Shown here in pieces: positions 30,774 to 49,564 of a stretch of DNA of 64,000 nucleotides. The number at the start of each line of letters is the position of its first letter. The first letter of the stretch is position 1. Under the pieces are notes generated by a model. That model worked only from the letters and a program-made list of their open reading frames with translations, was not told the origin of the DNA and made no database searches. The translations under genes were made by a program, and so were the position numbers. Origin of the DNA: Paraniabella ginsengisoli (GTDB lineage Bacteria; Bacteroidota; Bacteroidia; Chitinophagales; Chitinophagaceae); the NCBI RefSeq assembly GCF_022513635.1, contig NZ_JAKWBL010000004.1, positions 868,001 through 932,000 of the forward strand. Direction: 5' to 3'.

Positions 30774-31467
30774 ATGTTTACAGAATCTCAAATAAGCGAT
30801 ATCGAAAACGCTTCTCTTGCAGAAGCGATCGAAATGGTATTAAATCAGTTTCCTACAGAAACTGTTTTCCACTTCTTTAGGTCAGGAAGATCAGGTGCTT
30901 ACGCACGTAATTGCCCGAAACAATTTACCGGTAAAAATTTTCACACTCGATACAGGCCGGTTGTTTTATGAACATTACGACCTGCTCGAAAAAACAAATG
31001 CCCGATACAAAACCAATATTCAGGTATATTTTCCTCAAGGTCCCGATGTCGAAAAATTTGTCAACGAAAAAGGCGTAAATGCTTTTTACGAATCGGTTGA
31101 AAACCGCAAGGAATGCTGCTTTATACGCAAGGTAAAACCATTGAATCGCGCGTTGGAAGGAGCAAAGGTTTGGATCACCGGCCTTCGCGCCGAGCAGTCC
31201 GAAAACAGGCAAGACATGAAAATGCTGGAGTGGGATGAAGGCCGCCAGTTATACAAGTTCAATCCTTTAATTCATTGGTCTTACGATCAAATGATCGATT
31301 TTATTAAGGAAAATAATATTCCTTATAATCCGCTACACGACAAAGGTTTTGTTAGCATTGGTTGTGCACCCTGCACCCGCGCTATCGAGCCTGGTGAAGA
31401 TGCACGTGCTGGTCGTTGGTGGTGGGAGGTTTCGCATAAAGAATGCGGGCTTCACGTTAATAGCTAA
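30774..31467 (+). CDS. cysH: Adenylylsulfate/phosphoadenylylsulfate reductase, frame broken
   Basis: Reduces APS (or PAPS) to sulfite using thioredoxin. The 5' part is MFTESQISDIENASLAEA to about residue 30, then a frame change near 30868 before TSLGQEDQVLTHVIARNNLP. Typical motifs: LDTGRLFYEHYD, the ECCFIRKVKPL double cysteine, the GLRAEQS motif, GCAPCTRAI, and the catalytic ECGLHVNS at the C-terminus. The CC + CxxC set indicates a [4Fe-4S] cluster, as in APS reductases. The break is equivalent to two missing bases or one extra. First enzyme gene of the sulfur operon. Confidence 0.92.
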
Positions 31468-31479
31468 AATAATTTTGGG

Positions 31480-31536
31480 CCCGGCTGCAGTGCTACTATC
31501 AGCGTAATTGCGTCGCACTCTTCATCTTCCGGAATA
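31480..31536 (+). repeat. Dispersed intergenic repeat copy
   Basis: Begins CCCGGCTGCAGTGCT, then TTGCGTCGCACTCTTCA and GGAATA. Nearly the same string occurs at 40116-40171, even with the same AAAATAATTTT flank. Placed directly after cysH, as that copy is directly after cysE. Confidence 0.85.
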
Positions 31537-31610
31537 AAGCCCAACAACAATATATCGATTGTCCTCTATTTCTGTAAGGAGATTGGGGCTAACAAAATAA
31601 AAAGAACCAA

Positions 31611-31647
31611 CTCCCCTCTCCTTTTGGAGAGGGGCTGGGGTGAGGTC
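31611..31647 (+). repeat. C/G-rich hairpin repeat directly before cysD
   Basis: CCCCTCTCC-TTTT-GGAGAGGGG is a perfect hairpin followed by CTGGGGTGAGGTC. It ends 7 bp before the cysD ATG. Related copies stand at 34746 and 34850 before cobA. This repeat type is widely seen in Bacteroidota intergenic DNA. Confidence 0.85.
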
Positions 31648-31654
31648 ATAAAAA

Positions 31655-32561
31655 ATGAACAAGTACGAATTAGACTATTTAGAGCAGCTCGAAGCTGAAA
31701 GCATTTTTATTATGCGCGAAGTAGCTGCACAGTTCGAAAGACCAGCTTTGCTTTTTAGCGGGGGTAAAGATTCTATCACTTTGGTGCAGCTTGCAAAAAG
31801 GCGTTCGCTCCCGGCAAAATCCCTTTCCCGTTAGTACATATTGATACGGGTCATAACTTCCCGAAGCGCTTAGATACCGCGATGCATTGGCAAAAGAATT
31901 AGGTGCGGAACTTATTGTGCGTAATGTGGAAGATACGATCAAAGCAAAAAATCTTACCGAGCCAAAAGGTAAATTTGCGAGCCGCAACTGGTTACAAACA
32001 CATACACTTTTAGACACGATTGAAGAATTTAAGTTTGATGCCTGCATTGGCGGTGCCCGGCGCGATGAAGAAAAAGCACGCGCGAAAGAAAGAATCTTTT
32101 CAGTACGCGATGAGTTTGGACAATGGGATCCGAAACTACAACGCCCTGAATTATGGAATATTTACAATGGCCGCATTCATAAAGGTGAGAACGTTCGCGT
32201 ATTTCCCATCAGCAACTGGACGGAATTAGACGTTTGGAGTTATATCAAAAGCGAAAAAGTACAATTGCCTTCTATATACTTTGCGCACGATCGCGAAGTG
32301 TTGGTGCATGAAGGACAATTGATCGCTGTTTCAGATTTTATTACAATAGATGAAACAGATACAATCGTAAACAAAAGAGTACGTTATCGCACGGTTGGTG
32401 ATATGACCTGCACTGCCGCAGTGGAGTCAAACGCCGAAACTTTAGATGAAGTGGTAAACGAAATTATGGCAACGCGTATTTCAGAGCGCGGCGAAACCCG
32501 CATCGATGATCGCGTAACCGAAGCGGCTATGGAAGACAGGAAGAAGGGAGGCTACTTTTAG
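31655..32561 (+). CDS. cysD: Sulfate adenylyltransferase subunit 2 (ATP sulfurylase small subunit), two frame breaks
   Basis: With CysN makes APS from sulfate and ATP. Starts MNKYELDYLEQLEAESIFIM; PP-loop FSGGKDSITLVQLA; then after a break at an A5 run near 31794 KAFAPGKIPFPLVHIDTGHN; after a second break (missing G near 31862) ALRYRDALAKELGAELIVRN. Further family segments: IGGARRDEEKARAKERIFS, RVFPISNWTELDVWSYI, and the C-terminal MEDRKKGGYF. About 302 aa. cysN follows, but a toxin-antitoxin pair lies in between. Confidence 0.93.
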
Positions 32562-32578
32562 TGCGCAGTTAAAATACG

Positions 32579-32586
32579 TATATTTG
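32579..32586 (+). promoter_or_regulatory. Candidate -7 box of the embedded toxin-antitoxin pair
   Basis: TATATTTG lies 17 nt before the antitoxin ATG, between cysD and the pair. Its -33 partner is weak. It would let the pair be transcribed apart from the cys operon. Confidence 0.4.
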
Positions 32587-32603
32587 TGTAAAATGCACGT
32601 GTT

Positions 32604-32852
32604 ATGACGACAAAGCTTACTTTAACAATAGAAAAATCGATAATAGAGCGCGCTAAGGTTTATGCGAAAGGTACACAGCGTAGCCTTTCTGAAATGGTAG
32701 AAAAATATTTGGAACGTGTTACGGATCAGCGTTTGCCGGATGAGGATATTTCGCCCAGGCTTAAAAAAATAGCAGGCAGCTTACCTCTTCCTGAAGAATT
32801 TGACGATAAGCAGGCGCTGGATGACTATTATTCAAAGAAATACAAGCTGTAA
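32604..32852 (+). CDS. Antitoxin (DUF6364-like, ribbon-helix-helix type)
   Basis: 82 residues, starting MTTKLTLTIEKSIIERAKVY, then AKGTQRSLSEMVEKYLE, a typical ribbon-helix-helix N-terminus with acidic C-terminal half (EEFDDKQALDDYYSKKY) that would wrap the toxin. The toxin gene begins 1 bp after the stop codon. The pair is inserted between cysD and cysN. Confidence 0.8.
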   Translation: MTTKLTLTIEKSIIERAKVYAKGTQRSLSEMVEKYLERVTDQRLPDEDISPRLKKIAGSLPLPEEFDDKQALDDYYSKKYKL

Positions 32853-32853
32853 A

Positions 32854-33270
32854 GTGAAGCATATTTTTATTGATACCAATATTATCATCGACTTCGTTTC
32901 ACAAAGAAAACCTTTTGGACTTGCAGCTTTATTGCTCTTTAATTTGGCGGATAAAAAGAAAATAAAACTTTACGCTTCTTCGCATGCAATTGCTACGGCT
33001 CATTATATTTTAAAAAAGGTTTATAGGGAGAGTGAGCTGCGAAAGCTGCTTGATCAGGTGATGGATTATCTCGAAATCATTCCGGTTACGGTTGACATAT
33101 TGAGGAAAGCGGCACGTTCTCAGCACAAAGATTTTGAAGATGCAGTTCAGATTTTATGTGCAGTTACAATAAAAAATGTATTTGCAATTGCAACAAGAAA
33201 TGTAGCTGATTTCACGAAAGCCGGTATTCCAGTTTATACGCCTGATGAAGTGTTAGAATTAATTAAATAG
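32854..33270 (+). CDS. PIN-domain toxin (VapC family)
   Basis: Predicted ribonuclease toxin. GTG start at 32854 gives VKHIFIDTNIIIDFVSQRKP with the first catalytic aspartate. HKDFEDAVQILCAV carries the second acidic cluster and IATRNVADFTKAGIPVYTPD the last. About 138 residues, intact, with every PIN acidic position filled. The upstream in-frame ATG at 32800 lies within the antitoxin gene and is not used. Confidence 0.85.
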   Translation: MKHIFIDTNIIIDFVSQRKPFGLAALLLFNLADKKKIKLYASSHAIATAHYILKKVYRESELRKLLDQVMDYLEIIPVTVDILRKAARSQHKDFEDAVQILCAVTIKNVFAIATRNVADFTKAGIPVYTPDEVLELIK

Positions 33271-33285
33271 AAATATTTATACTTT

Positions 33286-33447
33286 AAAAGGTTCTTTAAG
33301 CGAAACATTAAATCATTTGATGATGCTTTTGACGAAAATTTTATAACAGAAGAACAATTAAAATATTTCAGACATAAAACAACAGAAGTTGAAAAAATAC
33401 TGAATGGTTATATCGCCTGGCTTGAAAGAAAGTCGAAAGAGCGATAA
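33286..33447 (+). pseudogene. 3' fragment of a four-helix-bundle (S23-type) protein gene
   Basis: Reads KGSLSETLNHL, then after a frame change DAFDENFITEEQLKYFRHKT and TEVEKILNGYIAWLER before a stop. This is the C-terminal helix pair of the four-helix-bundle (23S rRNA intervening-sequence) proteins common in Bacteroidota. The N-terminal half is missing, so it is a remnant. It lies right after the toxin and before cysN. Confidence 0.6.
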
Positions 33448-33486
33448 CCTTGTAAACTTATCAACTTGTAAACTTTTCAACGGAAA

Positions 33487-34728
33487 ATGGACATTCTAAG
33501 ATTTATAACAGCAGGTAGTGTAGATGATGGAAAAAGCACATTGATTGGCCGTTTGTTGTATGACAGCAAAAGCATTCTGGTAGATCAATTAGAGGCTTTG
33601 GAAAAACAATCTAAAAATAAAAATGCCGATGGCATTGATCTGGCGCTGCTTACAGACGGTTTACGTGCTGAACGCGAACAGGGCATCACTATTGATGTGG
33701 CCTATCGTTATTTCAATACACCCAAAAGAAAATTTATAATTGCTGATGCGCCCGGCCATGTGCAGTACACCCGCAACATGATTACCGGAGCTTCCAACTC
33801 AAGCCTGATCATTATTTTGATTGATGCGCGTGCCGGAGTTATCGAACAAACTCGTCGTCACTCAATCATCGCATCTTTATTAAAAATGCCGCACGTTGTT
33901 GTTGCAATTAATAAAATGGATTTGGTAGATTTTTCAGAATCCCGTTATAATGAAATTAAGAAGGATTATCAAAAAGTAGCAACGCAACTAGGTTTAAGCA
34001 ATATTACTTACATTCCTATTTCGGCTTTAAATGGAGATAACATCGTAACGCCTTCCGAAAAAATGCCCTGGTATAAAGATCAGCCTTTATTACAGTTTTT
34101 GGAAGAAGTAGAAGTGTCGGAAGATATTAATCATGCCGATCCTCGTTTTCAGGTGCAATATGTTATTCGCCCGCAAACGCAGGAACTGCACGATTATCGC
34201 GGCTATGCCGGTGAAATCGTAAGCGGAGTTTACAAAAAAGGCGATAAGATAACAGTATTACCCGCCGGTATAGAAACCACACTTTCAAAAATTGAAATTG
34301 CAGGCGAAGAAGTGGAAGAAGCATTTGCGCCGCAAGCGGTTGTATTGCATCTGGCTGATGACATTGATACCAGTCGCGGCGACACATTTGTGCATACCGA
34401 TAATCAACCTAAAGTTGAAAGTGAAATTGAAGTGATTCTTTGCTGGTTAGATAATAAACCTTTAGTACAAGGAAATAAATATTTTCTTCAACATAAAGGG
34501 AAATTAGTAAGAGCAATTATCAGGGAAATAGAATACAAGTTAGATGTAAATACATTAGAGCATACAGAAGTTACCGACAATGTAAAACTAAACGAAGTTG
34601 TGAAAGCAAAAATTAAAACAGCCCAGCCACTTGTTTACGATCCGTTTGATAAAATCAGCGATTATGGCAATGCGATATTAGTTGATGAAACCAGTAACAG
34701 CACGGTAGCTGCTGTATTATTGAGTTAA
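33487..34728 (+). CDS. cysN: Sulfate adenylyltransferase subunit 1 (GTPase)
   Basis: EF-Tu-like GTPase that drives APS formation by CysD. 413 aa, intact. Motifs: G1 GSVDDGKSTLIGRLLYDSK (residues 9-27), switch region AEREQGITIDVAYRYF, G3 DAPGHVQYTRNM, G4 NKMDLVDF, and the SALNGDNI G5 segment. Barrel domains follow. There is no APS kinase domain at the C-terminus, so the cell would use APS directly with the Fe-S type CysH, or carry cysC elsewhere. Confidence 0.96.
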   Translation: MDILRFITAGSVDDGKSTLIGRLLYDSKSILVDQLEALEKQSKNKNADGIDLALLTDGLRAEREQGITIDVAYRYFNTPKRKFIIADAPGHVQYTRNMITGASNSSLIIILIDARAGVIEQTRRHSIIASLLKMPHVVVAINKMDLVDFSESRYNEIKKDYQKVATQLGLSNITYIPISALNGDNIVTPSEKMPWYKDQPLLQFLEEVEVSEDINHADPRFQVQYVIRPQTQELHDYRGYAGEIVSGVYKKGDKITVLPAGIETTLSKIEIAGEEVEEAFAPQAVVLHLADDIDTSRGDTFVHTDNQPKVESEIEVILCWLDNKPLVQGNKYFLQHKGKLVRAIIREIEYKLDVNTLEHTEVTDNVKLNEVVKAKIKTAQPLVYDPFDKISDYGNAILVDETSNSTVAAVLLS

Positions 34729-34849: not shown

Positions 34850-34884
34850 TTCTCCTCCTCCTCTGGAGGGGGCAGGGGGAGGCT
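34850..34884 (+). repeat. Third C/G-rich repeat, abutting cobA
   Basis: TCTCCTCCTCCTCTGGAGGG then GGCAGGGGGAGGC. A degenerate member of the same repeat type. It ends only a few bases before the first usable GTG of cobA. Confidence 0.7.
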
Positions 34885-34890
34885 GGTTCT

Positions 34891-35711
34891 GTGGTGTTGG
34901 CTGCTGCTGGTCCTGGCGATCCCGATCTGATTACAGTAAAGGCCGCTAATGCTTTAAAAGAAGCAGAAGTGGTATTAATAGACAGATTGGTAAGCGAAGT
35001 GATTTTGCATCGATATGTTTCAGCCAACGCAGAAATTGTTCGTGTGGGAAAAGAATGCCGCAATAATATTTCAACGCCCCAGGAAGTTATCAATCAGCTT
35101 TTGGTTAAATATGCATTACAAGGAAAAAAGTAGTGCGCTTAAAAGGTGGCGACGTTTCCATTTTCTCAAATGTGTTGGATGAATTGCAGGTATTGGTCGC
35201 CAACAAAATTCCTTACGAGATTATTCCGGGCGTTACCGCATCTCTCGGCGCGGCTGCTTATGCGGGCATTCCGCTCACGGCACGCGGCTATGCTACTTCG
35301 GTAAGGTTTCTCACTTATTATAAATCTGATATTGTAACAGACAAGCATTGGCAGGATTTGGCGCAAACCAATGATACGCTGGTTTTTTATATGTCGTCAG
35401 GAACATTAAAAAATGTAGTTGACAAACTCATTCAATTTGGTGTTCATAAAGATGTACACGTTGCTGTTGCAGAGCAGGCCACCACTTGTTATCAGCGTAT
35501 TCATGAATGTAATATTTATGATTACAAAACAAAACTTGAAGGCAAAAAATTCGCATCTCCTTCGCTTGTAATTATTGGTAAGGTAGTTGCCTTGCACCAG
35601 CAATTCAAGTGGTTAAAAAACAGTGAACACGATCAACAATATTTTGTGTCGGTAGGAGAAGGAATTCAAGATATAAACGAACTTAATAAACCAATAAAGC
35701 ATGTTATCTGA
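34891..35711 (+). CDS. cobA: Uroporphyrinogen-III C-methyltransferase, frame broken
   Basis: SUMT: methylates uroporphyrinogen III twice with SAM to precorrin-2, the first committed step to siroheme. Begins VVLAAAGPGDPDLITVKAAN (SAM-binding GPGDP), then NAEIVRVGKE; after a break at the A6 run 35124-35129 (needs seven) VVRLKGGDVSIFSN (the classic RLKGGDP-like motif), PGVTASLGAAAYAGIPLT, and FYMSSGTL. About 273 aa. The start is uncertain: no ATG fits, and the upstream part is repeat sequence. It overlaps cysJ by 11 bp. It supplies siroheme to CysI. Confidence 0.9.
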
Positions 35712-37409
35712 AGATAAACTGCAGAAGATTAAAGATTTTACGTCCACGCTGTCGCGTGAAGAACTGATTTGGCTGAATGGCTATATCGCCGGAAAGGCTG
35801 GTGGCTTGCAGACCACATCAGGCAGCGCAGCCCCGGCTGGTATTGCGAAAAAGATAACGCTGGCGTATGGTACCGAAACGGGGAATTCCAAAAAGCTGGC
35901 TACGCAATTAGCTGGCATTGCAAAGAAGAAAGGCATTGGTGTTAAACTTGCAGGATTGGATCAATATCGGTTTACCGACCTGACAAAAGAAGAATATTTT
36001 TTGTAGTGATCAGTACGCAAGGCGAAGGCGAACCGCCGCTTTTAGCGCAGAAATTTTACGACCAACTTCACGAAACGCAAATGGAGTTGAAGAAAATGAA
36101 TTTCGGTGTGCTGGCGCTTGGGGATACTTCATATGCGCAATTTTGTAAAACAGGTGAAGATGTTGATGCAAGGTTGGAAGCCTTAGGCGCGCATCGCATG
36201 TTGCCTTTAAAAAATGTGATGTAGATTACGAAGAGGATTCTTTGCATTGGATAGATAATGTAGTAACCGCTTTGCAAACAAGCGTTGGCAGTGTGCCGGC
36301 TGTTGCAGCAACATCTGTTGTTGAAGAAAAAAGCCTACCGGAAAAAAGCATTATAAAGGAACAATTGTTACAAACGTTAATTTGAATGATCGCGGAAGTA
36401 ATAAAGAAACCTATCATGTAGAAATCAGCACCGATGAGGATTTAGATTATTTGCCAGGCGATGCGCTGGTATTATTCCACCCAATTGTGATGCTGCGGTG
36501 CAGGAGATTATTACTCTTACAGGCATCGATCCAGAGCTTGAAATACAAACCTCAAAAGTAACTTCATCAGTACGGGAACTACTACAAAAGCATTTGAACA
36601 TTTTATATCCGTTAAAGTCAACTATTAAACAATACGCTACTATTATTACAGGACATGAAATAGCTGAGCAAACAAGGTTAAGCCTTCCCGATCTGTTGAA
36701 ACAATTTCCTGTAAAGGATGCTAAGATGTTTGAAGAAGTGATTAAGATATTAACTGCACAGGCACCCAGACTTTATTCCGTTTCTTCCGCACCAGGAAGC
36801 CATGGTGTGAATGAAATTCATATTACAGTAAGTAAAGATGAGTTTTATGTTGAAGATGAAAAACGCACGGGCGTAAGCAGTGAATATTTTTCTACAAAGC
36901 CCGTTGGTACTGAGTTTGAGTTTTTCATTCAAAAGCAAAAACATTTCCGCTTACCAACTGAAGATAAAGATGTGATCATGATTGGCCCCGGAACCGGCAT
37001 TGCTCCGTTCCGCTCCTTTATTGCGGAAAGAGACGCGCAGGCGGCGAGTGGTCGCAACTGGTTATTCTTTGGTGAACAACATTTCGTAACCGACTTTTTG
37101 TATCAAACCGAATTGCAGGATTATTTACAAACTGGCGCATTAGCCAATTTGGATGTAGCTTTCTCGCGAGATCAGAAAGAAAAAGTATATGTGCAACATC
37201 GCATGAAAGAGAAAGGTGCAGAATTATATGAATGGTTGCAAAATGGTGCATATATGTACATCAGCGGAAAGCGTGAACCAACTAGTAAAGATGTAGAAAA
37301 AATGCTGGTTGATATTTTTAAAGAACACGGCAATAAAAGCGAAGAAGAGGCGGAGAAATATTTACATCAGTTAGTGGAAGAAGGAAGGTGGGAGAAGGAT
37401 GTATATTGA
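35701..37409 (+). CDS. cysJ: Sulfite reductase flavoprotein subunit, four frame breaks
   Basis: NADPH-oxidising flavoprotein that feeds electrons to CysI. N-terminal helical segment, then flavodoxin domain (ITLAYGTETGNSKKLATQLA, VVISTQGEGEPP, NFGVLALGDTSYAQFCKTGE). FAD domain (ETYHVEIS..DLDYLPGDAL, APRLYSVSSAPGSH) and NADPH domain (MIGPGTGIAPFRSFIAERDA, WLFFGEQHFVTDFLYQTEL, YMYISGKREPTSKDVEKML). Breaks: T6 near 35998, a missing T near 36217, A6 near 36331, C3 near 36482, each one base short. About 570 aa after repair. Between cobA and cysI. Confidence 0.93.
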
Positions 37410-37515
37410 GAGACGTTGGAACCATGATTTGTGGGATTAATAGATTAACAGGAACGCTGCGAAGCGGCGGAACAATAATAGCTGTGGATGAAATCCACGG
37501 AAAACAAATAGATTC

Positions 37516-39174
37516 ATGAGCGAACAATCACCAGTAGAGAAAATTAAAATAGCCAGTAAGGGGCTGCGCGGCACGTTAAAAGAAAGCCTGCAGGATAATT
37601 ACACAGGCGCTGTGCGTGAAGATGATACACAGTTAATGAAGTTTCACGGCATGTATCAACAAGATGACCGCGACAGGCGCGAAGAAAGAAGTATGAAAAA
37701 ATTGGAATGGTTGTATTCCTTTATGTTAAGGCTGCGGCTTCCGGGTGGTTTTTTAACGCCGGAGCAATGGATAGCGATGCACCATGTAGCGGGCGAGCAT
37801 TCTACCGGAACGATAAAAATTACAACAAGGCAAACGGTACAATTGCATGGTATTTTAAAGTCGCACATTAAGCCAACCATGCAGTCGTTTAATTTAGCGG
37901 GCTTGGATTCTATTGCCACTTGTGGCGATGTGAATCGTAATGTATGCTGCACTTCCAATCCTGGCGAATCGCCGGTGCATGATGAAGTGTTTCAGTTTGC
38001 TTCAAAGATCAGCGAGATGGCGAAGCCTAAAACCCGCGCCTGGTACGAGATTTGGATTGGTGAAGAAAAAATTGGTGAGAAGGTAGAAGAAGATCCATTG
38101 TATAAAGATCGCTACCTGCCGCGCAAATTAAAAGTTGGCATTGCTGTACCGCCTAATAATGACGTTGATATTTTTATTAACGATATTGCACTGATCGCCA
38201 TCATCGAAAATAATAAATTGATTGGTTTCAATCTCGCTGCTGGCGGTGGTTTGGGCGCCACACATGGCAATCCCAATACTTACGCAAGGCTGGCTACCGT
38301 TTTGGGTTTTGTAGAGAATGATGAGGAAAAAATATTGAAAGCGGTTTACGAAACCATTACGGTGCAACGCGATTATGGCAACCGCAGCGACAGAAAATTA
38401 TCTCGTTTAAAATACACCATTGATAAATTAGGCGTTGATAAATACCGGGAAGAAATTGAAAAGCGTTGTGGCTTTAAATTGGAGCCAGCAAAGCCATTTG
38501 AATTTACTGAAAGGCAGGACAGATACGGCTGGGTGGAAGATCATAAAGGCAATTGGCATTACACAGCGTTTATCGAAAACGGTCGTGTTTTGGATGGCGA
38601 AGGGATTGACCTGAAAAGTTGCCTGTATAAAATTGCGGAAGCTGGCAAGTGTAATTTCCGTTTTACCGCCAATCAAAATGTTATCTTAACTGATATTAAG
38701 GATAAAGATAAAGCGGCAATTGAAACGCTGTTGAATGAATATGGTCTTATTGAACATACCGACAAGGCGGGAGCATTAAGGAAAAACGCTATCGCTTGTG
38801 TGGCATTTAACACTTGTCCATTAGCGTTAGCAGAAGCGCAGCGTTATTTGCCTACGCTTATTTCGAAGATAGAACCCATACTGGAAAAGCATAGCATGAT
38901 TAATGATGATATTATATTGCGCATGACTGGTTGCCCCAATGGTTGTGGCCGTTCTCCAAATGCTGAGATAGGTTTTGTAGGAACAGCTTATGGTAAATAC
39001 AATCTGCATATTGGTGGTGACAGGCTGGGCCAGCGTTTAAACACAAAATATAAAGAAAGCCTTAACGAAGAACAAATATTGGATACTTTAGATGGGTTAT
39101 TCGGAGTTTATCAAAAAGAGAAAAAGGAGAATGAAACCTTTGGTGATTTCTCTTATCGTAAATGGATTCTTTAA
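37516..39174 (+). CDS. cysI: Assimilatory sulfite reductase hemoprotein
   Basis: Reduces sulfite to sulfide with siroheme and a [4Fe-4S] cluster. 552 aa, intact. N-terminal ferredoxin-like domain (RLPGGFLTPEQWIAMHHVAG, TIKITTRQTVQLHGI), CTSNPGESPVHDEV, and the two cysteine pairs for the cluster and siroheme, CVAFNTCPLAL and GCPNGCGRSPNAEIGFVG. The NADPH-type (CysJ-dependent) assignment follows from adjacency to cysJ. Start ATG 37516. Confidence 0.96.
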   Translation: MSEQSPVEKIKIASKGLRGTLKESLQDNYTGAVREDDTQLMKFHGMYQQDDRDRREERSMKKLEWLYSFMLRLRLPGGFLTPEQWIAMHHVAGEHSTGTIKITTRQTVQLHGILKSHIKPTMQSFNLAGLDSIATCGDVNRNVCCTSNPGESPVHDEVFQFASKISEMAKPKTRAWYEIWIGEEKIGEKVEEDPLYKDRYLPRKLKVGIAVPPNNDVDIFINDIALIAIIENNKLIGFNLAAGGGLGATHGNPNTYARLATVLGFVENDEEKILKAVYETITVQRDYGNRSDRKLSRLKYTIDKLGVDKYREEIEKRCGFKLEPAKPFEFTERQDRYGWVEDHKGNWHYTAFIENGRVLDGEGIDLKSCLYKIAEAGKCNFRFTANQNVILTDIKDKDKAAIETLLNEYGLIEHTDKAGALRKNAIACVAFNTCPLALAEAQRYLPTLISKIEPILEKHSMINDDIILRMTGCPNGCGRSPNAEIGFVGTAYGKYNLHIGGDRLGQRLNTKYKESLNEEQILDTLDGLFGVYQKEKKENETFGDFSYRKWIL

Positions 39175-39183
39175 TTGGCAAAT

Positions 39184-39251
39184 AGTTGATGGTTCATAGT
39201 TCATAGCGAAGAACAAACCATTAACCATGATCTATGAACCATTAACTCAAC
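39184..39251. repeat. Inverted repeat between cysI and cysE
   Basis: GTTGATGGTTCATAGTTCAT AG on the left pairs with CTATGAACCATTAAC on the right. Hairpin spacer of the same kind as at 30675. Confidence 0.75.
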
Positions 39252-39255
39252 AAAC

Positions 39256-40100
39256 ATGAACAATAAAAACTTTATTAAACTGTTGTTGCAAAACAATGCC
39301 AAAATAGGTAACCTTCCTGATAAGGATTTAGCACATCAGTTTATCGACGATATTTTTCAGTTTTTGTTTATACCAAAAACAGGCATAAACCAAAAAGAAG
39401 CAGATCTTGAAAAAGGTATGTATGCGCTAAAAAGCCATTTGGCAACATTAATATATGATGTTGTTAATGATGGTGCAAAGTCGCAAACGCAGGCAGAGTC
39501 TTTCTTTGAGGCTTTGCCGGATATTTATGCAACTTTGCAGGAAGATGCTGCTGCATTTGTGGCAAACGATCCGGCAGCATACAATGTGAGTCAGATATTG
39601 CAAGCCTATCCCGGTTTCTATGCTATTGCTGTTTACCGCATTTCAAACCAGTTGCGCAAACAAGACATACGTGGCCTGCCAAGAATTTTTGCCGAATACG
39701 CTCATAGTAAAACCGGAATTGACATCCATCCTTATGCTACCATTGGTAAAAACTTTTTATAGATCATGGCACTGGTGTTGTTATTGGAGAAACATCTGTT
39801 ATTGGAAATAATGTAAGAATTTACCAGGGCGTAACGATTGGTGCGTTCAATTCTGCCAAGGGCAAAAAGAAAACCAAGCGTCATCCAACTATCGAAGACA
39901 ATGTGATCATTTATTCAGGCGCTACTATTTTAGGCGGCGACACTGTAGTGGGCCACGATAGCGTGATTGGCGGTAATGCCTGGATCACATTTAGCGTTCC
40001 CGCAAATTCATTGGTGTATAACCAAAGTGAAGTAGCTGATAAAGAAAGTTTTTCGCATAAGGATTCGGTAAGTAAAATATTGCAGTCTTCTAAGAAATAA
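39256..40100 (+). CDS. cysE: Serine O-acetyltransferase, frame broken
   Basis: Makes O-acetylserine from serine and acetyl-CoA, the carbon skeleton for cysteine. N-terminal helical domain, then [20 protein letters not shown] (active-site DIHP), and after the break the left-handed beta-helix hexapeptides ([55 protein letters not shown]). The T5 run 39754-39758 needs six T to restore [11 protein letters not shown]. About 281 aa. No cysteine synthase gene (cysK/cysM) was seen in the window. Confidence 0.93.
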
Positions 40101-40450
40101 AAATAATTTTATGTTCCCGGCTGCAGTGCTTATGGCATCGGTGTTGCGTCGCACTCTTCAATTGTGGAATATATCTGAACAATTTAGTAGAGGTCGTCAT
40201 TGTGAGCGAAATGTAGTGGAGTTGAACAATCTCCATGTTGTATAAGAGATTCCTCCACTCACGGCTTTCAGCCACTCGGTCGGAACGACTAATGAACACA
40301 GGCTCGCCGTTGCTGTATAACGTAGTGAAGCCAAGCAATCTTTTTCAATATAGAAGATTTCTGATTTGGTTTGCTTGAGCGGCTTTTAATTACACACAAA
40401 TAGTTATCAAACATTCATAATTCTCAACATACTGATAATTCTTCCTCGCC
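40101..40450. other. Intergenic region with two repeat families before the fusion gene
   Basis: Holds a dispersed repeat at 40116-40171 (CCCGGCTGCAGTGCTTATGG, GTTGCGTCGCACTCTTCA) and, at about 40194-40310, copies of the GTCATTCCGACCG...GGAGGAATCTC repeat type in both orientations. No gene. Confidence 0.75.
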
Positions 40451-40511
40451 GCATTCCGGATCTGATGGGGCTGGCAATAATCTGTTCCCGGTTTTTATCA
40501 AGCTGGAGGAG

Positions 40512-42008
40512 TTGAAATTATTGGTGATCGGCGGAGGTAATATTGGTTTGGAAAAGCTACAGGCCGTAATTAAAAATGCTCCGGCCACAGCTGTAAAGTT
40601 GGTTGCAATTGAGATTAGTAATGAGGTTAGAAATTTTGTTGCACCTTATCCAAATATAGTATTGGAAGAAAGAGGGTATGCTAAATCCGACATCAAAGAT
40701 GCAGACCTTGTAATAGCAGCAGTTAATGATTTACAAGTGGCTACTCAAATTAAAGCCGATGCGGACGAATGTGAGAAGCTGGTGAATGTTGCCGATAAGC
40801 CCGAACTGTGCGATTTTTATTTAGGCTCGGTTGTTAAAAAAGGCAATTTAAAAATTGCTATTTCAACAAATGGCAAATCTCCAACCATTGCCAAACGGCT
40901 AAAAGAAACTTTGAACGAAGTTATACCTGATGAAATTGACGAAGTACTCGATAATATGCAGGCCTTACGCAATAAGCTTTCCGGTGATTTCGATCATAAG
41001 CTTAAAGTGTTAAATAACGTAACGAGGTCTTTAGTCGAAAATCCCGATGAAGCATTGCAGGAATATGAAACAGATGCAGCTGCGGCTGAAATAGTTGATT
41101 CTGCTGATGTGGTAGCGAAGGCACAGAAAAGTACCAATTGGTATTTAATAGGTTTAGGTATTATTTTATTAGTAGGGTTAAGTGTTTACGCTTTGTATGC
41201 TTTTGACCTGGTTGATCCGATCCTGCAAACTTTAAATAAAGATCATCATTTATTTTATTGGATGTTGCTTGCGGGTTTTGTTGCTGAAATAGTAGCAGGT
41301 TCAATGGGTATGGGTTATGGTGTTATTTGTACCACTATTTTATTGATGCTGAACGTGCCACCTCCTGTTGTTAGCGCCAGCATTCATTCCGCAGAATCCT
41401 TTACAACAGCAGCAGGCAGTATAAGTCATTTCAAGTTAGGCAATGTAAACAAGAAACTCATAAAGGCCTTGGCTTTGCCGGCTATTATCGGAGCCGTTAT
41501 CGGAGCTTTGCTTCTTAGCTATGTTGGTGAAAAATATGCAGCCATAGTAAAGCCTTTTATTGCGGCCTACACATTATATCTTGGTGTTAGGATATTAATG
41601 AATGTTTTTAAAAGCAAAGACACTGCCCAGCTAAAAATAAACCGTAAGAAAACCAATATTCCTCTTTTAGGCTTAGCTGGTGGCTTTATTGATTCGTTCG
41701 GGGGTGGTGGTTGGGGTCCATTGGTTACCGGAACCTTTATTAAAAACGGAAGAACGCCCCGTTATGTTGTTGGAAGTTCCACAGTGGCGAAATTTATTCT
41801 TACTGTAACAAGCGCAGTTACTTTTATATTTACTATTGGTATTTCTCATTGGAATATTGTAGCTGGCCTTTTAATAGGCGGTATTATAACGGCGCCATTT
41901 TCGGCTATGCTTACATCCAGGCTTCCTGTTAAAAAAATGTTCTTTGTTGTAGGTGTGCTTGTAATTGTGATGAGCCTGATAACCATCAGTAAAGCGCTAT
42001 TTATGTAA
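40512..42008 (+). CDS. Fusion: Met8/CysG-like precorrin-2 dehydrogenase domain plus TauE/SafE (TSUP) permease
   Basis: Two-domain protein of at least 498 aa. Residues 1 to about 200: Rossmann domain LLVIGGGNIGLEKLQAVIKN and the rest of a Met8p/CysG-type siroheme synthase (VNVADKPELCDFYLGSVVKK, AISTNGKSPTIAKRLKETL). This would oxidise precorrin-2 and may insert iron. Residues about 210-498: a TauE/SafE permease with eight or so helices (AEIVAGSMGMGYGVICTTIL, GFIDSFGGGGWGPLVTGTF). The frame remains open upstream and reads NNLFPVFIKLEE, the normal start of the Met8 domain, so the true start lies before 40512 but no ATG is in frame; another base error is likely. Follows cysE in the sulfur locus. 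Confidence 0.9.
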   Translation: MKLLVIGGGNIGLEKLQAVIKNAPATAVKLVAIEISNEVRNFVAPYPNIVLEERGYAKSDIKDADLVIAAVNDLQVATQIKADADECEKLVNVADKPELCDFYLGSVVKKGNLKIAISTNGKSPTIAKRLKETLNEVIPDEIDEVLDNMQALRNKLSGDFDHKLKVLNNVTRSLVENPDEALQEYETDAAAAEIVDSADVVAKAQKSTNWYLIGLGIILLVGLSVYALYAFDLVDPILQTLNKDHHLFYWMLLAGFVAEIVAGSMGMGYGVICTTILLMLNVPPPVVSASIHSAESFTTAAGSISHFKLGNVNKKLIKALALPAIIGAVIGALLLSYVGEKYAAIVKPFIAAYTLYLGVRILMNVFKSKDTAQLKINRKKTNIPLLGLAGGFIDSFGGGGWGPLVTGTFIKNGRTPRYVVGSSTVAKFILTVTSAVTFIFTIGISHWNIVAGLLIGGIITAPFSAMLTSRLPVKKMFFVVGVLVIVMSLITISKALFM

Positions 42009-42029
42009 AATATTTTTTTAAAAATTACT

Positions 42030-42068
42030 CTACTTATTTTGTAGACTAATAAATCCCAATTATATTTG
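42030..42068 (+). promoter_or_regulatory. Promoter of the TonB receptor gene with overlapping inverted repeat
   Basis: TTTG (42038-42041), 19 nt, TATATTTG (42061-42068). CTAC-N7-GTAG (42030-42044) covers the -33 box, the same design as the peroxiredoxin promoter. Leader to the receptor gene is about 250 nt. Confidence 0.7.
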
Positions 42069-42213: not shown

Positions 42214-42322
42214 TACCCTCGATCGAATTGTCCTTCGGCCTTTCTATATAATCATCTAAATCATTCCAAAAAAAATAATAACGCAAAGAACAATGAAGTC
42301 TCAAATAAGAAAACACATATAC

Positions 42323-44893
42323 ATGAAAACTATTTCAACCAAACTAAGGCTCACACTGATTTTTTTCTCTTTCCCTTTTATACTTAAAGCTCAACTGGCC
42401 GGTCGTGTCGTAAATGAGAATAATGATGCATTGCCTGGTGCGAGCGTATTAATTAAAGGCACATCACAAGGAGTAACTACGGATACCTCGGGTATTTTTA
42501 CTTTATCACCTGTACCCAAAACACCTTTCACTATTTCAGTTTCTTCTGTTAATTATTCTCCACGAAATATTGTGGTAAGGTCTGTTGAAGACACGCTACT
42601 GATCAGGCTTCAGGTAATATATCAAACCGATACGGTTGTTATTACATCCAGAAGAAGAAGGGAACTTTCGCAAGATGTTCCTATTGCGGTATCCGTTGTA
42701 GGTGCCAATCAAATTGCACAGACAGGTGCGTTTAATGTAAACCGTGTTAAGGAACTGGTACCTTCACTACAATTATATACGTCAAACCCAAGAAATACGG
42801 GTATTAACATACGAGGCTTAGGTTCTCCATTTGGATTAACTAATGATGGTTTAGATCCGGGTGTTGGTTATTATGTAGATGGAGTATATTATGCAAGGCC
42901 TGCTGTTGCAACACTTGATTTTATTGATATCGAACGGTTCGAAGTTTTAAGGGGTCCTCAGGGAACGTTATTTGGAAAGAATACTACTTCAGGAGCTATC
43001 AATATTACTACGAAGAAACCAAGTTTTGTTCCTGGTGGAAACCTTGAAGTGAGTTATGGAAACTTTGGCTATATACAAGCCAAAGCATCGGTAACCGGTC
43101 CTCTTACAAAAAGATTAGCAGCTCGTGTGTCGTTCTCCGGAACGCAGCGTGATGGCGTTGTTAAAAATGTGCGTACAGATAAATACACCAATGATATTAA
43201 CAATCTTGGTTTAAGAGCGCAGTTCCTCTACAATGTTTCAGATAACACGCAAGTAACGTTGGCTGGTGATTATAATAAACAAAATCCCGATGGTTACGCA
43301 CAGGTAGTGGCAGGAGTGGTTCAAACACAAAGACCAGCTTATCGCCAATTTCCTGCAATTATTGCCGATTTAAATTATACATTGCCAAGCACCAATGCGT
43401 TCGATCGTGTAATAGATCACGATACGCCATGGAATTCGGGTAATGAGATCGGTGGAGGTTCTTTGAATATAGATTCTAAAATTGGCCCCGGAACTTTAAC
43501 CGCTACAACCGCTTACCGTTACTGGATTTGGGAACCTTCAAACGATAGAGACTTTACAGGTTTGCAAGCATTGGCTAAATCGCAAAACCCTTCAAAGCAC
43601 AAAAGCATTTCGCAGGAAATAAGATATGCAGGTGAAATTAGTGAACGCTTAAGCGGTGTAATTGGAGTGTATTATATTGGTCAGGAAGTAAAGACAACAG
43701 GTACAGAAGAATCTGGCCGTGACCAATGGCGGTTTTCTCAAAGCTCAACCAGCGAGTTATGGAAAACCCCGGGATTGTTTGAAGGATATGGCATCAAAAC
43801 AAACTCGTCTATTAATTCATTAAGTGCTGCGGTGTTTGCAAACGTTGATTGGGAAGTAGTAAAAAATTTGCATTTATTACCTGGTGTAAGATTGAACTAT
43901 GATGAAAAGACAGTTTCTTACAATCGTGCTATTTATGGTGGCCTTGAAACTACTGATCCTGCACTACTGGCTTTGAAACGCGGTGTTTACAGCGACCAGT
44001 TTTATGAAGCAGACGCTTATGAAAGAAATGCTACTTACCAGGTAACATTAGCATATCGCCCCTCAAGGAGGATTAACACTTTTGGAACTTATTCTACAAG
44101 CTATAAGCCTGTTGGTGTTAATGTAGCAGGATTACCAACAGTGAATAATGAACCTGCAATTGATCTTGCTGTGATCAGGCCTGAATATACCAAGCATTAT
44201 GAAGTTGGTATCAAAACAACACCAACTGACGATATTACTTTCAATATAACAGCACATAATTCCGACATTGAAGATTATCAGACCAATGTACAGTCTGCAG
44301 AACTTGGTGTTAACAGAGGATATATTGCTAATGCCGACAAGGTAAGAGTAAGAGGTGTTGAAGTTGATGCCACATATCGGTTAAACCATCATTTCAACTT
44401 TTATGGTGCACTAAGCTATACAGAAGGTAAATATGTGAAATTTACTAACGCTCCATTACCGTTGGAAGAAACCGGTGCCACAAATTCGGAGGGCGTGCAG
44501 GTTGCATTTAAAGATATTTCAGGCGGTGCATTACCAGGCATTTCAAAATGGGGAGGTTCTGCCGGTGGGGAATACTCAACGCCATCATCTTTGTTTGGCA
44601 GGGCAAACAGGTTTTTTATCGGCCTTGATGCTTTTGCAAGGTCTTCCTTTTCTTCAAGTCCATCACCTTCAGCTTACTTAAACGTAGCCGGGTACGGCCT
44701 GTTTAACGCCAGGCTTGGGTTCAGAGCTATTAAAGGTTTCTCTGCATTTATTTGGTCACGTAATATTTTTGATAAAGATTATTATGAACAATTGCTTCCG
44801 GCTGGTGGCAATGCCGGTCATTACGCAGGTGTGCTGGGCGATCCACGAACTTATGGACTTACTTTAAGCTATACATTTAACGGACGCAACTAA
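42323..44893 (+). CDS. TonB-dependent outer membrane receptor
   Basis: 856 aa, intact. Signal peptide MKTISTKLRLTLIFFSFPFI ending LKAQ. A carboxypeptidase-like domain (LAGRVVNENNDALPGASVLI), then TonB box region and plug (DVPIAVSVVGANQIAQTGAF, RGPQGTLFGKNTTSGAINIT), and a 22-strand barrel ending YGLTLSYTFNGRN. No SusD partner follows, unlike the other two systems. The promoter carries the sulfur-locus palindrome, so uptake of a sulfur compound or of a metal cofactor is a reasonable guess. ATG 42323 fits the signal peptide better than 42293. Confidence 0.9.
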   Translation: MKTISTKLRLTLIFFSFPFILKAQLAGRVVNENNDALPGASVLIKGTSQGVTTDTSGIFTLSPVPKTPFTISVSSVNYSPRNIVVRSVEDTLLIRLQVIYQTDTVVITSRRRRELSQDVPIAVSVVGANQIAQTGAFNVNRVKELVPSLQLYTSNPRNTGINIRGLGSPFGLTNDGLDPGVGYYVDGVYYARPAVATLDFIDIERFEVLRGPQGTLFGKNTTSGAINITTKKPSFVPGGNLEVSYGNFGYIQAKASVTGPLTKRLAARVSFSGTQRDGVVKNVRTDKYTNDINNLGLRAQFLYNVSDNTQVTLAGDYNKQNPDGYAQVVAGVVQTQRPAYRQFPAIIADLNYTLPSTNAFDRVIDHDTPWNSGNEIGGGSLNIDSKIGPGTLTATTAYRYWIWEPSNDRDFTGLQALAKSQNPSKHKSISQEIRYAGEISERLSGVIGVYYIGQEVKTTGTEESGRDQWRFSQSSTSELWKTPGLFEGYGIKTNSSINSLSAAVFANVDWEVVKNLHLLPGVRLNYDEKTVSYNRAIYGGLETTDPALLALKRGVYSDQFYEADAYERNATYQVTLAYRPSRRINTFGTYSTSYKPVGVNVAGLPTVNNEPAIDLAVIRPEYTKHYEVGIKTTPTDDITFNITAHNSDIEDYQTNVQSAELGVNRGYIANADKVRVRGVEVDATYRLNHHFNFYGALSYTEGKYVKFTNAPLPLEETGATNSEGVQVAFKDISGGALPGISKWGGSAGGEYSTPSSLFGRANRFFIGLDAFARSSFSSSPSPSAYLNVAGYGLFNARLGFRAIKGFSAFIWSRNIFDKDYYEQLLPAGGNAGHYAGVLGDPRTYGLTLSYTFNGRN

Positions 44894-45235: not shown

Positions 45236-46484
45236 ATGAAAAAATGGATGACGATTTTTTGCTTTATAGTATATCATAGTGCGTTCACACAGGGCGTTGC
45301 TAAAGAGCTATATTTTGAACCTGGTTTTGCTGCTGGTGCCGGTGTATCAAAAGTTTTTGCGGAGGTTAATTATATTCCATTGCAGACCACCAAGAAGAGC
45401 ATTTTTGGTAGGATTAGAAAACTGATCGTATCGGATCAATACTTTATCATCTGGGATGCTGACACAAATTTTATCTATTTTTTTGACAAGACCGGGAAGT
45501 TTATTAAGAAATACAGACCTCCTAACTGTACGATCAAAACAATACAACTCGATAAACGCAGAAATGCCATTTTCATTTCGGGGAGCAATAAGAATTTTGA
45601 TTTTTCACCAGCAGAAATCGAAAAGATGATGGAAGACCCTACCAATGCGTCTTTCGCGCGGTTTACTTGGTCTGCCTATTATGATTTAGCAGATATTCAA
45701 AATGAAAAGGTACAGCGAGTGAAAGATTTTAGTCTTTCATTGGTTTCACCTACCATTTATGTCAATAATTGGTGGGCCTATAGTTATATTTATTCGAACA
45801 GAAAATTTGCTGACACTAAAGATTATGAGTTGAAGGTATATGACGGCAAAAAAATATAAAAACATATTTTCCTTACAATAAAAAGACTGATTCATTTCAT
45901 TATAAGCCAGACCAAATTTCCTTTTTTCCAACTGACGAAAAAGACAAATTGTTATTTACCCGCCCTTACGATTATACCTTTTATCAACTAACACCCGATA
46001 GTGTTACTGCGCTTTATAAATTGATCATGCCTTTGTCCATTTCATTGCCCAAAGCGTTTTTCTCATTTTCTTTCCGTTCTCAAAATGATATCGATCAGTA
46101 TCGTTCCCAAAATGGAAGTTTAGTTTGGGAGTTAGACGATGTTTGGAAGACGAAACAGTACTTATTCTTTACACTTGATTATTATAAGAGTTGGCGTGAA
46201 AAGAACTTTATGTATGATGAAAGTACCGGAAGATTTTACAATACCAGTAAAATAAGCGCTGACAGTACCAACGGTTTTCTACCCGTGCTTCCAGGCGGTA
46301 TTCAGTATAACGATGAAGAATACCTGTATACAAGCACATCTTCTTCATCAATGTTTCAAAGCAAAGATTATAATCAAAAAAAGAACCTCAATACGCACCC
46401 GCTATAAAACAATATTTCGAAACAGGTACCCGTACAGACAATCCGGTTATCATTCAGCTAAAACTTAAAAATAAAATCGGATAA
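45236..46484 (+). CDS. Exported putative six-bladed beta-propeller protein, two frame breaks
   Basis: About 415 aa after repair. Signal peptide MKKWMTIFCFIVYHSAFTQG. Sequence such as VNYIPLQTTKKSIFGRIRKL and IIWDADTNFIYFFDKTGKFI matches the N-terminal pattern of Bacteroidota 6-bladed propeller proteins (BF3164-like). Breaks at the A7 runs near 45848 and 46377, each needing eight; the frame then reads NIKTYFPYNKKTDSFHY and KKEPQYAPAIKQYFETGTRT. Role unknown. An outer membrane protein gene follows 132 bp later. Confidence 0.7.
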
Positions 46485-46534
46485 TCAATGTCATTAACCT
46501 TACGCGCTGCTCCGTTTATGGAAGTTGATAGTAG

Positions 46535-46589
46535 TACTACAGATGACGCTGTGCGACGCAATATCGATGCCACATATTCATCTGCCGGG
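46535..46589 (-). repeat. Dispersed intergenic repeat copy (reverse orientation)
   Basis: Minus strand reads CCCGGCAGATGAATATGTGG then CATCGATATTGCGTCGCAC, aligning along its full length with 40116-40171. It lies just before the next gene and is translated only if an unlikely upstream start is used. Confidence 0.8.
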
Positions 46590-46616
46590 TCAATAAATAT
46601 TTCTTTAGTTAGGATA

Positions 46617-49564
46617 ATGCGTATCTTACTAATTGTTTTTATAGCTCTCATACCTTCTCTATTATTTGCTCAACAGGATACATCTCGCGCGGGTTCCATT
46701 ACCGGTATTGTAAAAGATTCTGCTGATGATTATACGCTGCAATCTGTCACTATTACGTTGTATAAAAAGGCTGATTCATCTCTGCTTGCTTACCAGATAA
46801 CAGGAGAAGACGGATCTTTTAACTTAACGGATATCCCATTTTTTACCCCCGTTTATATTAATTTTTCTTTTACTGGCTATAGTCCTTTTTCTAAAAACAT
46901 AACACTTGATACTGCTAACCGTTTTTATAATTTTAAGAATGTAATGCTACCCAAAAGCCAAGGCTTATTGGATGAAGTTGTGGTAAAAGCCGTGGTTCCA
47001 ATAACGATGAATGGCGACACTTTAGAAATTAATCCGGGGGCATTTAAATTAGATTCGAATGCGGTTGTAGAAGATATGTTGCGGCGCGTGCCAGGGGTGA
47101 CTATGTGGGGTGATGGAACTATTACCGTGAATGGTAAAACTGTTAACAATGTATTTGTAGATGGCAAACCTTTTTTGGTAGTGATCCTGCACTGGCAACG
47201 CAAAACCTACCTAAAAACGCTATTGATAAGATCCAGGTGTATCGTGAAGAAGATTATTCAAAAGAGAATTTGGATGATAATCCTGCTGATTCACTGCTTA
47301 CGATGAACATTAAATTGAAAGAGGATAAGAAGTTTGGATACTTTGGTAAAGTAGGGGCTGGTATTGGAACAGACGATCGTTATGAAGTTGATGGCGCCGG
47401 CTTAACTTACAATAAAAAGATGAGAACCGGTGTCGCCTTTAGTACAAATAATATAAATAAATCTGCCAGTTTACAGGAAATGCTTCGGCAAAGTTCTTAT
47501 CGAAACTATAATCCTAATAACCGGTATGTAGCTGATTTAGGAACTGAAGGCATCAATCGTATTTTATTTGGAGGTGGTTTTATGCAGTATGATTTTTCAG
47601 AAACCGATAACAGCAGGTTGAATAACCAGATAAGAGCGAATTATGAGTTTAGAAATACAAATAATTTTCTGACTTCGGCAACAGATTCCAGGAGGAGCGG
47701 TGATGGCGAGGTATATTTAGAGAATGCGGATCGCGAGAGCAGGGCCACCACTAATGCGCACAGCGCCGGGATAAATTATAATAAGAGAGATCAGGACAAG
47801 GATTTTTCCATTAACGCTAATTTTAATGCGTCTGATAATAATAGAATTTCAAACAACGTTACCAATACTGCGGATGAAGGCGGCAATTTGTTAAGCACAA
47901 GTTCTAAATCCACGGAATCTAAAGGGAATAGCAACGGTTTAGTTTTTTCTACTTCTTTTAGAAATAAAGATGACGATGACCGGAACCTGAAGAGTTTTAG
48001 TCTTAGCTATAATCTTTCCTATGGCGAAAATGAAAGCGAGAGCAGAAGTATAACTGATTTTATTTCCCTCCGGGATGCCAGCCAGAACAAATATTTCAAC
48101 AGGCAAAACAATACAAATTCAAACAATTTTAATAACAGCCTTAATGTTAATTATAATGCACTAAAGCGCTTGTTGTTTGGGAACTTTAACCTTTGGGATG
48201 TTAATCTTGTTGCAACTAATAACGTGAGCTTTTCCAATTCTGACGCAGATAATCGGGTAAGCGATTATGATTCTTTGACTGGTGCGTATATGATAAATGA
48301 TTCTTTAACAAATACGCATCGTGTTACAAGAATAGTTGACAGGCCTTCACTTCGCCTTTCTAAAAATTTCTCCCGGCGCTTATCAGACAGGTTTAACCGG
48401 TATATCAATATTAACGCCAATGTACAAGGACAGTTTTTAAATGAAAAGAATGAGTCAAACTTTTCTTACCGTAACCTTGATCGGTCATATACTTTCTTTA
48501 CTCCATCTGCTTCTGTCAGCTATAACTACCAGCGATACAATAAGTACACTATAGAGATGAGCTTGTCAGGAAATTCTTCTCCCTCAATACCAACAATTGA
48601 TCAAATAAGACCTATTGTAGATACCAGCGCAAACGTTTATAATATTAGTTTAGGTAACCCAAACCTTCAGCCTTATGTTACAAACGCGCTGAGTTTCAAC
48701 TTTAATTACAGACGTGAAGAATCGTCAAAGAAAACAGATTATAATGTAAACCTTTCGGGTAGCGTCAGTGACATTAACGATGCGATTGTAGATAGTAGTA
48801 TTTTTGATAAAGAAAATGCCCGAAGGACTATTTACCTTATTAATATGGATGGCAGGCGCGTTTACAGCGCTAATTTCAGGCTGGGAACTTCTTTTAAAAT
48901 GAAGAATAATAAAGTGTTGCAGTTCAACTATGGACTCAGTTATTCTAACACAACCTCCCCCAACTTCATCGATGGTTTATACTCAGTAGCGCGCGCCAAC
49001 AACATTAATAATAACCTGAATGTGTTTTACACGCTCGGTGATATTGGTACAGTGCAGGTTTCACAAGGCATTCAGTCTGGTGTTACTAAACAGACCAGTG
49101 AAAATCTTGGATCGTTTCGCGCGGTGAACTACATAACTCAGGGAAATTTAAATATCAATCCTCTTAAAAATCTTACCATCAGCAATACCGTAAATTACGT
49201 TACCAACAACACAACCGGACAAGCATCAACCTTATGGAATGCATTTGCAAGCTATAGATTTCTGGATAGCAAGCAGGCCGAGGTTAAACTGTCGGCAATG
49301 GATATTTTAAAGCAGAATAAAAATATTGTAACCAACGCTTCTCTTAACAATTTAAGCACAACGGTATCTAATGGATTGCAGCAATTCTTTATGGTTACGT
49401 TATCTTACTATCCCAGAAAGTTTGGTGGTAGCAGTAGAATACGTAGCAGCGAATCCCGTAGTGAGTCGCGCAGCGAGCGCCGCAGTGATAACGGAGGAGA
49501 GCGAAGATCTGAAAGGCGCTCACAAAGCAGTGGTTCTCGTGGCGGCGGTATGAGAGGACGGTAA
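46617..49564 (+). CDS. Outer membrane beta-barrel protein with carboxypeptidase-like N-terminal domain, frame broken
   Basis: About 982 aa. Signal peptide MRILLIVFIALIPSLLFAQQ, then a regulatory-like domain (GSITGIVKDSADDYTLQSVT) and a plug-like part (EDMLRRVPGVTMWGDGTITV). The frame breaks at the T6 run 47171-47176 (seven restores DGKPFFGSDPALATQNLPKN) and continues in an Asn/Asp/Ser-rich TonB-receptor-like barrel (OMP_b-brl_3 type). The final about 45 residues are low-complexity Arg/Ser/Glu/Gly. ATG 46617 is chosen because the earlier in-frame start translates a dispersed repeat. Ligand unknown. Confidence 0.82.

Follow-up and report, generated by a model that had tools for sequence, protein, structure and literature searches.

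A siroheme synthase-like domain joined to a TauE/SafE permease in the sulfate assimilation clusters of Niabella and other Bacteroidota

The window, which is the whole stretch of 64,000 nucleotides analysed here, belongs to Paraniabella ginsengisoli, whose genome measures 4.53 Mb and is 92% complete. It contains a sulfate assimilation cluster in which one chain combines a Met8/CysG-type domain, a linker, an extra helix (TM0) and a TSUP permease. The features are listed below by their positions in the window; the enzyme domain is delimited by Pfam and NCBIfam profiles and by fold matches.

30895–34728, forward strand: cysH, cysD (internal stops in its match) and cysN, upstream of the fusion
34867–40097, forward strand: cobA (broken), cysJ (broken), cysI and cysE (broken), the rest of the cys cluster
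40404–42008, forward strand: whole fusion frame from stop to stop, 534 amino acids, with the true start between 40404 and 40482
40482–41039, forward strand: Met8/CysG-B siroheme synthase domain, model residues 1–186, with a Rossmann part, a central part and predicted dimerisation helices
40794–40796, forward strand: Asp codon aligned with the catalytic D104 of CysG
40881–40883, forward strand: Pro codon aligned with P133 of CysG (tetrapyrrole platform)
41040–41123, forward strand: variable and poorly ordered linker, model residues 187–214
41124–41201, forward strand: extra helix TM0 of the structure model, model residues ~215–240
41229–42005, forward strand: TSUP (TauE/SafE) permease, PF01925 at 9.8e-37, predicted as two units
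42029–42045, forward strand: palindrome TCTACTTATTTTGTAGA, located after the fusion and before the receptor gene, a possible operator
42293–44893, forward strand: TonB-dependent outer-membrane receptor, found near the fusion in most relatives as well

A fusion of a Met8/CysG-like part with a TSUP permease in one frame had been proposed in an earlier note made from the sequence alone, and the profile searches bear this out. The enzyme half matches PF13241 (NAD_binding_7) at 74.2 bits (cut-off 22.1), PF14824 (Sirohm_synth_M) at 37 bits (cut-off 25) and TIGR01470 (cysG_Nterm) at 101.5 bits (cut-off 62.3), and the permease half matches PF01925 (TauE/SafE) at 127.3 bits (cut-off 32.6), covering positions 2–235 of the 237 in the profile. 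The equivalog models PRK10637, PRK06718, PRK06719 and PRK05562 stay below their cut-offs on the fusion. The Pfam search gave no match to TP_methylase, the SUMT domain, in the chain, and CobA is encoded by a separate gene. The gene had been placed at 40460–42008; its end is correct, but 40460 does not fall on a codon boundary in the fusion frame, which opens at 40404, after a TAG at 40401–40403, and closes with the stop codon at 42006–42008. The frame contains no ATG, GTG or TTG upstream of its conserved LFPVF block (40482), and the first mechanical start, TTG at 40512, falls within the Met8 domain. The close relatives L004, L005 and L006 have an in-frame upstream TTG (TTG AGC), where the window reads TTA TCA after the stop. 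Because the window does not have this TTG, the start codon of its fusion is uncertain.

The gene order cobA-cysJ-cysI-cysE-fusion was also described earlier. The cys setting stands, but cobA, cysJ and cysE are broken, with one, four and one frame changes, respectively, relative to locus L034; cysI and the fusion both align with that locus in a single unbroken match. Ordinary genes with many frame changes relative to L034 are found at 34867–40097 and at 45236–48481, and the assembly of the window looks indel-rich, unless these genes are decaying. Such frame changes in neighbouring genes could raise the suspicion that an assembly or base error joined two separate genes. This was looked for and refuted: the identical in-frame join is found in 16/17 genomes of the genus Niabella (G000–G016; interrupted in G002) and in 74 of 80 loci from a wider scan, leaving an artefact with practically no probability. 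The genus is assigned from the relatives placed in it, which match the window at identities equal to those of named Niabella records.

The domain pair was searched across Bacteroidota, as had been proposed, and recurs in Niabella, Chryseobacterium, Elizabethkingia, Hydrotalea and Rufibacter. Among 59 relatives, single-frame fusions outside the genus are present in eight genomes (G018, G019, G020, G024, G025, G030, G031 and G034). In a sample of 218 Bacteroidota genomes with a completeness of at least 90%, 64 genomes give a match at E 1e-20 or better; 12 single-frame fusions were counted, and the remaining matches are to one half only or to both halves apart. Scanning species genomes gave 222 confirmed loci, of which 80 were retained, all assigned to Bacteroidota from record titles or genus names and mostly from Chryseobacterium. 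The six of these without a single frame comprise four with separate neighbouring Met8 and TSUP frames (L048, L099, L103 and L109) and two that are interrupted (L102 and L107). L048 and L099 are tandem unfused pairs, with a stop between the halves and then a new ATG further downstream. The permease occurs alone in L145, and Met8 occurs alone in L128 and L130. The minus strand at L127:222–968 encodes a free-standing Met8 (249 amino acids) that ends in a single TM0-like hydrophobic stretch and is perhaps the remnant of a split fusion. A single origin of the fusion was considered and set aside: quick trees of 78 TSUP rows and 61 Met8 rows, with Chryseobacterium thinned, have long branches and need 5 (TSUP) and 6 (Met8) changes of the fused label.

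The palindrome TCTAC-N7-GTAGA, which follows the fusion in the window, is found directly 5' of cobA in five loci (L035:2607, L037:2594, L038:2286, L039:2679 and L124:2725) and 5' of TSUP in the split pairs L048:2739 and L099:8548, in the latter as TCCAC-N7-GTGGA. A looser pattern, run on 23 loci, found none in many of them. The palindrome is a possible operator.

The enzyme half resembles CysG of S. enterica and Met8p of yeast in its fold and in keeping D104, P106, P133 and the glycine (NAD) loop of CysG in the alignment; S128 of CysG is replaced by Thr. In fold comparisons, the domain matches CysG (6p5x_B) with Z 17.1 and an rmsd of 3.5 over 160 aligned residues, SirC (3dfz) with Z 15.4 and Met8p (1kyq) with Z 14.3. 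The available text of PMC7018833 reports that CysG D104A abolishes both activities of CysG and that CysG additionally uses R260/R261 of its SUMT part, residues that are absent from the fusion. CysG is fused to a SUMT methyltransferase and Met8p is a single enzyme, whereas here a membrane permease follows. Loss of the catalytic residues in most homologues had been raised earlier as an objection, and it was looked for. Asp is present at the D104 place in 114/116 fused rows with a Met8 score above 150 bits, a set in which certain loci are present twice, and the two rows with Tyr (L018 and L040) are from one genome, G006. Purifying constraint is seen as well, with an omega of the Met8 half of 0.05, 0.08 and 0.09 in the three pairs of relatives with usable dS; dS of the window's own enzyme part is saturated. 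The enzyme half of the window's fusion looks active from these residues.

Like CysG and Met8p, the fusion co-occurs with siroheme reductases. Intact Met8, NIR_SIR and CobA over its cut-off are found in the same 31/59 relatives, and 28/28 others have none of them, in a count that leaves out G006 and the degenerate copies and in which G023, G036, G046 and G053 represent a match without residue inspection and the gene of G002 is interrupted. This was also observed in 36 genomes picked from the 218 (fused ones not searched before, those with TSUP apart from Met8, some with Met8 only and some with neither; Met8 at E 1e-20), where NIR_SIR is present in 22/23 genomes with Met8 and in 0/13 without. 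The sole exception is G127, which has an intact-looking fusion (L163:9675–11159) and neither NIR_SIR nor CobA. G006 amounts to a natural experiment: NIR_SIR is absent, CobA does not reach its cut-off, and in the fusion Tyr replaces D104 and the glycine loop is disrupted. The Met8 half of G006 has drifted, with 49–62% identity to seven others, and its TSUP half stays at 76–82%, as in the range of its sister. The G006 cluster also keeps a CysJ-like frame (L040:6709–7815, 368 amino acids), which matches the C-terminal part of CysJ only.

The precorrin-2 dehydrogenase SirC of B. megaterium, which has the same fold as the enzyme half, leaves iron insertion to SirB/CbiX. CbiX was found in 0/36 genomes of the window's family (G000–G035) and in 5/59 of all relatives, in a search directed at CbiX rather than CbiK. 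Since CbiX is absent from these family genomes, the Met8 domain should insert iron by itself. A second PF01077 frame of 830–846 amino acids, taken for NirB by its length, is present elsewhere in 12/17 genus genomes, that of the window among them; fragments are found in G002, G012 and G013, and none in G006 and G008. In G000, it lies less than 3 kb from a second CobA. No second intact Met8 was found in the 12 genomes that have the second frame. With a second siroheme reductase and no second intact Met8, the enzyme would hardly be dedicated to CysI, and a special link between the two is unlikely.

The structure was modelled from a 39-row alignment rich in Chryseobacterium, and the model is of middling confidence, with a pLDDT of 74.4 and a pTM of 0.49. 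The Rossmann part is well modelled, the dimerisation helices are predicted at low pLDDT, with fold matches that stop near residue 165, and linker residues 197–219 have a pLDDT below 50. The TSUP half is modelled as two units, each with a broken hairpin and three helices. Ahead of the TSUP domain, the model shows the additional helix TM0, which the earlier note had not included. As to the fold of the TSUP half, Rossmann matches took up the lists of fold matches, and the one membrane protein noted there, BacA (5oon, E 0.065), is not significant. TM0 would keep the enzyme domain on the cytosolic side; positive charge sits on those loops that a cytosolic enzyme domain would place on its own side of the membrane. 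By reading of its sequence, the unfused TSUP of L145 also starts with a TM0-like stretch, so TM0 may be older than the fusion and may have permitted it.

The permease half is found repeatedly with genes of sulfate activation and reduction. The order in Niabella is cobA-cysJ-cysI-cysE-fusion and in Chryseobacterium cobA-cysJ-cysI-receptor-fusion. In addition, family f22 and G030 have cobA-fusion-cysH-cysD, and G024 and G025 have cysD-fusion-cysN, which in G025 includes an intervening receptor. In other genomes, a lone TSUP adjoins cysH or cysN. Strong CysD/CysH matches are present in 28/28 family genomes with the window-type TSUP, and the 6 family genomes without such matches do not have this TSUP either; in G023 and G029, the CysD/CysH matches are present and the window-type TSUP is absent. 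In four genomes without NIR_SIR (G006, G035, G069 and G150), TSUP sits with CysHDN. No cys genes were found in the 15.7 kb examined around the G127 fusion or within the 14 kb examined around the G055 TSUP, and in G022 TSUP and the cys genes are on different contigs; this survey of the setting leaves out G042.

TSUP proteins with a comparable setting have been described. The DUF81/TSUP protein CysZ of C. glutamicum is required for growth below 5 mM sulfate, and its gene lies in a cys operon beside the ferrochelatase-like gene cysY, as far as the available text of PMC1266029 goes; the fusion likewise stands within a sulfate assimilation cluster. The cysZ mutant fails on sulfite as well (PMC1266029), so this precedent does not settle the cargo. 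A TauE homologue restores an E. coli delta-cysA strain according to the accessible part of PMC11535334. CysZ and P. fluorescens TK06_RS10770 belong to the DUF81 and TauE family, like the TSUP half; they are likened to it by family name and setting, and no fused enzyme is described for them in the available text. The link to CysHDN, the neighbouring receptor and the published TSUP importers together suggest that the TSUP half is a sulfate importer. The earlier note had named sulfite, sulfonates or sulfate as what this family moves; for the TSUP half, sulfate is, we infer, a more likely cargo than sulfite.

The opposite direction has also been proposed for members of PF01925, and a title in the references of PMC5840216 calls TauE of Cupriavidus necator a sulfite exporter. 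By this account, the TSUP half would export the sulfite made by CysH and protect the cell when sulfite reductase is without siroheme, and sulfite would be the point of the pathway at which Met8 and the permease come together. We regard this as improbable: a TonB receptor, which is an uptake device, is present in the flanks of 72/80 loci, and the available texts of PMC1266029 and PMC11535334 treat the two TSUP proteins described there, which act alongside cys genes, as sulfate importers. The setting and the receptor, in contrast to what is described for the TauE/SafE exporters, suggest import. Retention of the permease without sulfite reductase is compatible with export and import alike. Sulfonolipid synthesis as a use of sulfite in genomes without the reductase was considered as an idea only and dropped; the text of the paper concerned does not contain the word sulfite.

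The receptors in the flanks, most of them at Chryseobacterium loci, are of two unlike types, with 65 and 7 members. The receptor is usually adjacent to the fusion, and in some Niabella it is 2–3 kb away or beyond a second TSUP gene, the B-type gene discussed below; several further genomes likewise have a receptor in the flanks. The two types are represented by window positions 42293–44893, L041:5077–7953 and L126:6998–9988, and both occur within Niabella. A TonB receptor is odd for a small anion and may point to a different cargo, or to iron. In the window's TSUP type, two conserved positions carry Ala and Lys (33/33 rows), where other types have Asp (44/45) and Glu (38/45), so that its cargo or coupling may differ from theirs. 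The two receptor types near the gene in many lineages and these two residues would fit a permease that imports another sulfur compound (a sulfonate, a sulfate ester or thiosulfate) through the receptor. This is again unlikely, given the tie to the genes of ATP sulfurylase, which acts on sulfate, and given that no desulfonating enzyme or sulfatase was seen by eye in frame lists that cover parts of three loci. SulP permeases and the sulfate ABC permease were tried as cargo discriminators and discarded, SulP being near-universal (55/59 genomes) and the ABC permease over cut-off in none (0/59, with weaker matches in 16).

The B-type, a further TSUP whose N-terminal part matches Met8 weakly, is present in 13/17 genus genomes and absent from G006, G007, G013 and G016. 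In the 11 copies examined, which leave out G000 and G012, the D104 place is never Asp, with another residue or no alignment there, and the stretch after the Rossmann half has no Met8 match. The window genome's own copy (C4:1301643–1302850) is split between frames. NAD_binding_7 of Pfam is still detected in both B-type copies tested, L036 and L037, and in a model built from 4 rows (mean pLDDT 43.6) the Rossmann part alone is usable. Six pairs, formed by five sequences, have a usable dS, and two more pairs are saturated; in the six, the B-type Rossmann domain has an omega of 0.19–0.37 (bootstrap bounds 0.11–0.58) and the permease of 0.01–0.07; the domain is therefore under relaxed but real constraint. 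Other degenerate versions are found in G035, which has no NIR_SIR, and in G032, which has an intact Met8 elsewhere.

RCK/KTN domains, of which TrkA, KtrA and KefC are examples, have roles in potassium transporters. As here, a membrane transporter carries or binds a Rossmann domain, but the domains are of different origin and ligand gating is a feature of RCK/KTN. The persistence of a dead B-type domain that is constrained and predicted to fold, together with fold matches of the enzyme domain to the Rossmann domains of TrkA, KtrA and KefC (Z 10.9–11.3), raises the question of whether NAD(H) or a tetrapyrrole in the Rossmann pocket gates transport. The siroheme-making domain would then also gate the sulfate permease, with cofactor supply setting sulfate entry, and the B-type would be a regulatory Rossmann pseudoenzyme sensor. 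We know of no pseudoenzyme sensor of this kind in any TSUP transporter. Several points speak against gating: the linker varies and has little order, the Rossmann fold is a generic one, the two parts also occur unfused, and just 6/12 degenerate rows (one row per genome) retain the loop's third glycine. Regulation of the permease by the enzyme domain, and with it the sensor role of the B-type, is considered quite improbable, and rather more so than export or another cargo.

The reading favoured here, with moderate confidence, is that the fusion is a bifunctional protein of sulfate assimilation, in which a siroheme synthase and a sulfate-importing TSUP permease are joined mainly for co-expression and a fixed stoichiometry. 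The N-terminal domain would be the cell's siroheme synthase, oxidising precorrin-2 with NAD+ and inserting iron, and would supply siroheme to CysI and to the second siroheme reductase. The C-terminal domain would import sulfate for CysDN, perhaps behind the outer-membrane TonB receptor. The two halves would have no common intermediate, and evolution would have split them or lost them separately. Co-expression of two functions in the same pathway would be reason enough for the fusion, since the halves have no metabolite in common, are found apart or singly, and are connected by a loose linker. The analysis shows the architecture, the residues, the co-occurrence, the setting and the constraint, and from these the catalytic activity, the cargo and its direction, the cytosolic placement and the cause of the fusion are deduced. 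The earlier idea that sulfite transport follows CysI assembly finds no support in view of the second siroheme reductase, the permease kept with CysHDN where sulfite reductase is missing, and the loose linker; the simple co-expression fusion named beside it fits better. Among the points against the favoured reading, sulfate could enter by another route, with SulP in 55/59 genomes, and the G127 fusion occurs without the siroheme pathway or cys genes in the 15.7 kb examined.

As stated earlier from the sequence, a functional description seems to be missing: no account of a siroheme synthase-TSUP fusion was found in the literature searched, which omits most subscription journals. The arrangement is unusual in two respects: the one siroheme synthase that was found in the genome is a membrane-held cofactor enzyme, and a permease has retained a dead enzyme. 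For the biology of these bacteria, the fusion indicates which protein is likely to make siroheme in many Bacteroidota, and it offers a candidate for sulfate import in relatives that gave no sulfate ABC permease over cut-off. The intact fusion, the split pair, the dead-enzyme fusion and the lone permease form a natural series that bears on why enzymes become tied to transporters.
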